From Opitutales bacterium (lineage in GTDB: Bacteria; Verrucomicrobiota; Verrucomicrobiia; Opitutales; UBA953): DNA of 64,000 nt. Below the pieces are notes generated by a model, which ran no database searches, was not told where the DNA came from, and saw only the letters and a list, made by a program, of their open reading frames with translations. Shown here one piece after another: positions 12,864 through 50,016 of this stretch. The position numbers were made by a program, and so were the translations under genes. The stretch lies in the NCBI GenBank assembly GCA_017531845.1, contig JAFXKI010000003.1, forward strand, positions 62,001-126,000, written 5' to 3'. Each line of letters begins with the position of its first letter. The stretch's first letter is position 1.

Positions 12864-13246
12864 GGGGATGTTCCGGATTCGATCTCGGTTCGGAGGTTGC
12901 GACGGCACGCGGACGATGACACTCGGCGTCCTAAAATATGTGTCAGCCAATCAAATGGCAAAAACAACACCATCGCGTTTGAACGCAGCAATGCGTTCGC
13001 GCTTGCCGCCTAATAGCTGCGGCACGGTCACGCCCGCCTACGCCTGCTAAGCGGCCGGGCTGTTAAAAAAGCAGGTAAAACCTCGAGCTTGTCAGCGTTC
13101 CCGCGAGGCTAAAAACGGGAACGAGGATAGGTGTTCCCGGGCGCCCTCGCTCTAAGAAGCACCGAAATTCAATCGAGCGGCTAAGCGTGTAGAAGTTTCA
13201 GCTGAAAGACCGGGAGACGCGGGTTCAACTCCCGCCATCTCCACCA
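12864..13246 (+). ncRNA. ssrA: Transfer-messenger RNA (tmRNA)
   Basis: A 383-base one-piece tmRNA. The 5' GGGGATG pairs with the 3' CATCTCC, followed by A and an encoded CCA. The 5' GGGGATGTTCCGGATTCGAT and 3' GGGTTCAACTCCCGCC blocks form the tRNA-like half. The tag reading frame ends AFERSNAFALAA followed by TAA TAG (12978-13016), the expected C-terminal degron. The pseudoknot region carries two perfect copies of the window's repeat in inverted order, CGTTCCCG at 13096-13103 and CGGGAACG at 13116-13123, with a 12-base loop, plus a near copy TGTTCCCG at 13132. The RNA rescues stalled ribosomes with SmpB, which is not in the window. Confidence 0.97.
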
Positions 13247-15950: not shown

Positions 15951-15989
15951 ACACGTTCCCGTGAAAATTATCTTCACGGGAACGCGTGT
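15951..15989 (+). terminator. Bidirectional terminator made from two inverted repeat copies
   Basis: ACACGTTCCCGTGAA (15951-15965) faces TTCACGGGAACGCGTGT (15973-15989), with a two-base bulge and an A-rich 5' flank. The stem core is an inverted pair of the octamer. It separates convergent mutT and the FecR gene. Confidence 0.75.
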
Positions 15990-46587: not shown

Positions 46588-46632
46588 AAAAAGCGTTCCC
46601 GCGAAAACAATTTTTCACGGGAACGCTTTTTT
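46588..46632 (-). terminator. Terminator of the RodZ-like gene, built from two inverted repeat copies
   Basis: On the minus strand AAAAAAGCGTTCCCGTGAAA pairs with TTTCGCGGGAACGCTTTTT. Both arms carry the octamer (46594-46601 and 46618-46625), and T runs lie on both sides. It starts 14 bases after the gene's stop. Confidence 0.9.
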
Positions 46633-49973: not shown

Positions 49974-50016
49974 AAAAAAAAGCGTTCCCGTTTTCACGCG
50001 GGAACGCTTTTTTTAT
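49974..50016 (+). terminator. Terminator of galK, built from two inverted repeat copies
   Basis: AAAAAAAAGCGTTCCCG (ending 49990) and CGGGAACGCTTTTTTT (49999-50014) form a perfect stem around an 8-base loop. Both arms are the octamer. T and A runs make it usable on both strands. Confidence 0.93.

Follow-up and report, generated by a model that had tools for sequence, protein, structure and literature searches.

The tmRNA gene (ssrA) in the window (the whole 64,000-nucleotide stretch of DNA analyzed here) encodes, in the pseudoknot region of its product, an inverted pair of an 8-base word that is highly repeated in the surrounding genome. This arrangement raises the question of whether the repeat has entered a structural RNA as an additional helix or whether a helix that tmRNA always had is merely written in its letters. 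An earlier note had described the pair as a helix with a 12-base loop, had proposed to see by alignment and folding whether it replaces a pseudoknot arm, and had concluded that the repeat must be under strong, lasting pressure. Here, we conclude, with a probability of about 80%, that the tmRNA is an ordinary one whose PK3 stem 2 is spelt with a genus-wide iterated motif, presumably enriched by an agent acting on DNA, and that structured RNAs tolerate this motif.

The motif core CGTTCCCG, its other-strand copy CGGGAACG 12 bases further on, and the near copy TGTTCCCG were all found exactly where the earlier note had placed them (Table 1). ARAGORN and the Rfam model agree that the pair lies within tmRNA, and the gene has the tRNA-like ends, the tag frame, and the covariance-model match of a tmRNA. 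The segment 13090–13130 folds with −17.1 kcal/mol (z = −4.06), a value equaled by 0 of 200 shuffles. The helix thus folds as had been claimed, but its loop is not free, as it contains the stem 1 strand CGAGG and the structure is a pseudoknot. In the H-type pseudoknot search, the end of stem 2 adjoins the start of the 3′ strand of stem 1, which is the usual geometry of tmRNA PK3. In this region, the Rfam model displays only nested helices. A 2-base mismatch (13094–13095) separates the motif part of stem 2 from four outer pairs. In its place after the tag frame, its H-type geometry, and the abutment of its two stems, the structure is the same as PK3 in the mRNA-like domain of RF00023; the one difference is that its stem 2 is spelt as the genome-wide DNA motif. 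The near copy was rejected as a meaningful element, as 1.22 one-mismatch sites are expected per 383 bp and it is not kept in the genus. When 13104–13170 was folded without the 5′ half of PK3, TGTTCCCG paired with CGGGAACG, a possible competing fold.

Table 1. Positions of the tmRNA, inverted-pair, and RNase P RNA features (window coordinates unless a locus is named)
Feature	Position	Strand	Basis
tmRNA gene (ssrA), tag GKNNTIAFERSNAFALAA	12864-13246	+	ARAGORN; RF00023 142.6 bits, E 2.8e-57
PK3 stem 1, 5′ strand CCTCG	13081-13085	+	pseudoknot search, shuffle control, alignment
PK3 stem 2 outer extension, 5′ strand	13090-13093	+	pseudoknot search, fold
PK3 stem 2, 5′ strand = motif copy CGTTCCCG	13096-13103	+	exact match, pseudoknot search, fold
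PK3 stem 1, 3′ strand CGAGG	13104-13108	+	pseudoknot search, shuffle control
PK3 stem 2, 3′ strand = other-strand motif copy CGGGAACG	13116-13123	+	exact match, pseudoknot search, fold
PK3 stem 2 outer extension, 3′ strand	13126-13129	+	pseudoknot search, fold
Near copy TGTTCCCG; overlaps PK4 5′ strand 13130-13135	13132-13139	+	alignment, fold
Inverted motif pair, intergenic terminator-like hairpin	15954-15984	.	terminator scan: 17 pairs, 15987-15951; strong
Inverted motif pair, intergenic, A and T tracts flanking	46594-46625	.	absent from terminator scan list
Inverted motif pair, intergenic terminator-like hairpin	49983-50006	.	terminator scan: 16 pairs, 50014-49975; strong
RNase P RNA loci of six motif-rich species, 1-4 CGGGAACG copies	L077 1501-1897; L078, L081, L082, L083, L084	- (L077)	

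The same pseudoknot was looked for in relatives. A tmRNA match over the cut-off was obtained in 70 of the 95 genomes searched (71 records once the window and a duplicate of G003 are counted). ARAGORN called 69 tmRNAs (none for G084 and G059), and dropping the G003 duplicate left 68, comprising 8 from the genus and 60 from outside it. Among these 68, 26 were aligned, and 15, picked by alignment quality, were tested for pseudoknots; the latter are all eight genus members and seven from the sister genera g3 and g4, with g2, g5, and the order-level rows left out. One further alignment, in which the outgroup rows appeared by eye to be out of register in stem 2, was excluded from the pair counts. 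All 15 yielded PK3, its stem 2 directly adjoining stem 1. Some pseudoknot will turn up in any sequence searched in this way; each result was therefore compared with 300 dinucleotide shuffles, and 14 of the 15 were clearly above this control. No shuffle scored as high for any of the eight genus members; the numbers for the outgroups were 5 (G009), 39 (G010), 1 (G013), 0 (G016), 0 (G025), 1 (G030), and 1 (G032), so the PK3 of G010 is weak. Stem 2 is thus homologous to that of the sister genera, which spell it otherwise (for example, GGCTTTC/GAAAGCC in G025), and nothing has been added to the tmRNA or replaced in it. PK3 stem 2 is an old part of tmRNA in a new spelling. The earlier note was correct that a structural RNA had taken on the motif. 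The finding by which it would have been refuted, an identical sequence in tmRNAs of relatives that lack the motif, was not made in PK3 of any of the 60 tmRNAs from outside the genus.

Within the genus, the 5′/3′ strands of stem 2 are CGTTCCCG/CGGGAACG in G000 (the source genome of the window) and G003, CGTTCCCG/AGGGAACG in G005 and G006, CGTTCCCG/TGGGAAAG in G002, CATTCCCG/AGGGAACG in G001, and CGCTCCAA/TGGGAACG in G007. G004 has CGTTAGCA/TGAAAACG, in which neither strand is the motif though the genome is rich in it. The exact pair is therefore found in two of the eight members, and the exact 5′ copy in five. The tmRNAs of these five are 93–99% identical, and their common 5′ copy is accordingly weak evidence of upkeep. 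Among the 60 tmRNAs outside the genus, CGTTCCCG was found in none, and CGGGAACG in two (G063 and G089), where it lies at about position 320, close to the 3′ end in the region of the T arm and not in PK3.

The motif is real and specific to the genus Candidatus Spyradosoma (gut bacteria). The window holds 211 exact copies, against 6.9 in shuffles; the count is 22 times that expected from a second-order Markov model. The source genome (1.69 Mb) holds 5192 copies (about one per 325 bp), against 86 of the reversed word, and both strands are enriched (2602 and 2590 copies, against 45 and 41 reversed). The core is sharp, with one-mismatch variants at 0.2–3.5 times their expectation and only two flanking bases biased (G 55%, C 56%); its best extension is the 10-mer GCGTTCCCGC. 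The other motif-rich members have 6161 (G002), 6550 (G003), 5322 (G004), 5274 (G005), and 5434 (G006) copies, and the two motif-poor members have 1362 (G001) and 546 (G007), which exceed the count of the reversed word 9-fold and 6-fold, respectively. Among the 95 genomes, the enrichment is confined to the eight genus members. The other 87 have 4–492 copies, the highest being G083 (3.4 Mb; 492 copies against 154 reversed, a mild excess). In a set of 387 genomes from the phylum, high counts of the 10-mer are limited to the four genus members drawn (1586–2235 copies), and the next-highest count is 111, in a 5.8-Mb genome. A candidate stretch of contig C1 with the motif on one strand was rejected; its density fits a count of reverse matches made only among the matches listed. 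A literature search, whose coverage was without most subscription journals, found no publication on the motif, and the text matches to its letters, among the matches listed and as far as the excerpts from those works extend, look like chance letters in unrelated work.

The tmRNA itself is normal, and the element that calls for an explanation is the DNA word. The strong pressure that had been read from the helix was not supported by the tmRNA. Across the six motif-rich species, 7 copies were counted in a total of 2287 nt of tmRNA (3.06/kb), which is the average of their genomes (~3.1/kb, from genome counts and rounded sizes). In the window, 383-bp stretches have a mean of 1.24 copies, with at least one copy in 73% and at least two in 38%; a close convergent pair is rarer than two copies and is found in 4.0%. 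Base pairing within a stem doubles any single copy, so the pair in tmRNA does not count as a sign of additional pressure, and to this are added the zero copies in the tmRNA of G004 and the near identity of the tmRNAs that share the 5′ copy. What the pair demonstrates is that being structured does not exempt an RNA from the motif.

RNase P RNA, which was found in all eight genus members, points the same way. Exact copies number 3 in G000, 4 in G003, 3 in G005, 2 in G006, 2 in G002, 1 in G004, and 0 in both G001 and G007; the 15 copies of the six motif-rich species in 2369 nt correspond to 6.33/kb, exceeding the rate in tmRNA. All 15 read CGGGAACG in the RNA and occupy only four alignment sites, so they do not represent 15 events. 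CGGGAACG is foldable as a C–G and a G–C pair closing a GGAA tetraloop of the GNRA class, a kind of loop that RNase P RNAs often contain, and most of the copies lie where this hairpin can form. In the model alignments, two of the sites are at hairpin loops (L12 and L18), one is in the unmodeled P19 region, and one is in the P3 loop. The L12 loop is GCAA in the motif-poor G001 and G007 and in the motif-rich G005 and G006, and GAAA in G002. In stretches of G003, G004, and G002 scanned for further RNA families, tRNA was the one addition to tmRNA and RNase P RNA, and 23S rRNA was found in one of the eight genus genomes (G007).

Protein-coding genes bear on the level at which the motif acts. A coding set of 45 ORFs, covering 85% of the window, was chosen mechanically by codon score. 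It contains 162 copies, 81 sense and 81 antisense, and this equal orientation argues against a role at the mRNA level and toward action on DNA. The density is 2.98/kb in the ORFs and 5.09/kb in the remainder, which is contaminated by genes that the coding set missed. In gyrB (L126–L133), a site at the codons for RER has the motif in all eight genus members and lacks it in G008 and G009. At other sites, the motif accompanies amino-acid differences, namely HGDG versus HGNG (G005, G006, and G002) and VGEG or VGDG versus VGNG (G004). The gyrB of G001, which is 89% identical to that of G000, is without the motif at four of the six G000 sites, and three of these four are common to G003 and G005. The pattern fits a motif that would be ancestral and that G001 would have lost by decay. 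Resolution of the gyrB tree is poor, and G001, whose gyrB (L127) is clearly nearest that of G000 (0.89), has a tmRNA (L031) about equally near G007 (0.84) and G000 (0.83), which leaves the history unsure. This discord may reflect interspecies exchange, a bin of mixed origin, or differing rates.

Here, we propose a mechanism based on these comparisons. An agent acting on DNA would enrich the motif throughout the genomes of Candidatus Spyradosoma, and structured RNAs would take it up in forms that preserve their folds. In tmRNA, both strands of one stem would become motif copies together; in RNase P RNA, the strand CGGGAACG would be used, itself able to form the GGAA hairpin. Against this explanation, G004 has no copy in its tmRNA despite the 5322 in its genome, and the PK3 of G010 is weak.

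The driver presumably acts at the DNA level, and the motif is most likely uptake-sequence-like or HIP1-like. Our best guess, at clearly less than even odds, is that natural transformation maintains the motif as a DNA uptake sequence. Like the uptake sequences of Neisseria (DUS) and Pasteurellaceae (USS), the motif is a short word enriched on both strands, with close inverted pairs in terminator-like hairpins. PMC2397512 describes the Neisseria sequences as occurring in closely spaced inverted repeats with terminator activity and gives their mean spacing in meningococci as ~1150 nt, as compared with ~325 bp for the Spyradosoma motif. The close inverted pairs of the window (gap of 17 or less) are 8 convergent, 0 divergent, and 6 same-strand (strand-shuffle P = 0.010 for at least 8 convergent), and include the intergenic pairs in Table 1. 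The sequence and the phylum are different from those of DUS and USS. DUS dialects exist in Neisseriaceae, whereas dialect-like variants were not seen in the sister genera of Spyradosoma, and this would count against the uptake reading; another iterated word in these genera was considered and rejected, as no other iterated 8-mer was found there. ComEC was detected in 22 of 23 genomes and DprA in 18 of 19, both in all eight genus members and in most motif-free relatives. Because motif-free sister genera also have them, they permit the uptake reading without singling it out.

A methylation and mismatch-repair ratchet like that suggested for HIP1 ranks next as the driver and is, in our view, rather unlikely; it would leave the reading of the tmRNA unchanged. 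Cyanobacterial HIP1 (GCGATCGC) is also a short iterated word of one lineage, found within and between genes, and the sharp bounds of the Spyradosoma motif, with single-mismatch variants only slightly enriched, would suit such a ratchet. PMC4390886 links HIP sequences to methylases in each of the genomes where they occur. Matches to the methylase family PF01555 were found in all eight genus members and in 4 of 11 others, with none in the tested members of g2, g3, and g5, and matches to PF00145 in six of eight and 5 of 11; these are family matches, which do not imply recognition specificity. However, the motif is not enriched in G010 despite six matches to PF01555 there, a methylase with orthologs across the six rich species was not established, and no single N4/N6 or C5 methylase pattern following the motif was found by the PF01555 and PF00145 searches in these 8 and 11 genomes. 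Moreover, CGTTCCCG is not palindromic as HIP1 is, although its 10-mer has GCG...CGC arms, and no methylase matching it was identified. The motif is also ~3 times as dense as HIP1, for which PMC4390886 gives a saturation level of about one per 1000 nt in cyanobacteria. Phosphorothioation by Dnd was rejected as a driver, as DndC was found in 0 of 19 genomes, with a weak control in that 0 of 14 control genomes exceeded the cut-off. The specificity of Dnd is GAAC/GTTC.

It may also be asked whether the resemblance between stem 2 and the motif is a coincidence, the stem having its sequence for RNA reasons alone and being the same without the genome-wide motif. The low-copy members are already close to the motif, G001 with CATTCCCG/AGGGAACG and G007 with its 3′ strand TGGGAACG, and AGGGAACG (G001, G005, and G006) becomes CGGGAACG (G000 and G003) by one change that also creates a base pair. 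However, neither G001 nor G007 is motif-free, as judged from their excess over the reversed control, so their stems may be decaying copies. Together with the gyrB site that has the motif in all eight members and the absence of CGTTCCCG from all tmRNAs outside the genus, this makes coincidence improbable. That the motif was selected in tmRNA and RNase P as RNA (a stable stem and a GNRA docking loop), and is in part an RNA element, is very improbable: the GGAA-capable orientation of every RNase P copy and the stability of the tmRNA helix would suit it, but the copies in coding sequence are exactly equal in orientation and the density is higher outside the ORFs, no more than four sites account for the RNase P copies, and the GyrB amino-acid differences are more in keeping with a word in DNA than with a hairpin in RNA.

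Returning to the ordinary tmRNA spelt with a DNA word, a fuller account can be offered as speculation that we consider doubtful as a whole. The motif would be an uptake sequence of Spyradosoma's own, the first in Verrucomicrobiota, with ~3 times the density of that in Neisseria; it would alter GyrB amino acids, be written into RNase P RNA and tmRNA through RNA-compatible shapes (the PK3 stem and GNRA hairpins), and have been largely lost in G001 and G007. The uptake-sequence trait is known from two families, and an uptake sequence here would add one phylum to its known range. As the structures and tolerances of tmRNA and RNase P RNA are known, these RNAs provide a gauge of how far a DNA word pushes RNA-constrained sequence. 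With six motif-rich and two motif-poor species in one genus, the gain, loss, and cost of the word can be read from alignments. Repeats of a separate type, CACCAACCC, were seen in the motif-poor G007 (L092–L095); in 72 kb, 53 copies of CACCAACC were counted, against 3.1 expected, and they are clustered. Some copies of the G007 repeat in L091 lie, as judged by eye, within rRNA-like sequence.
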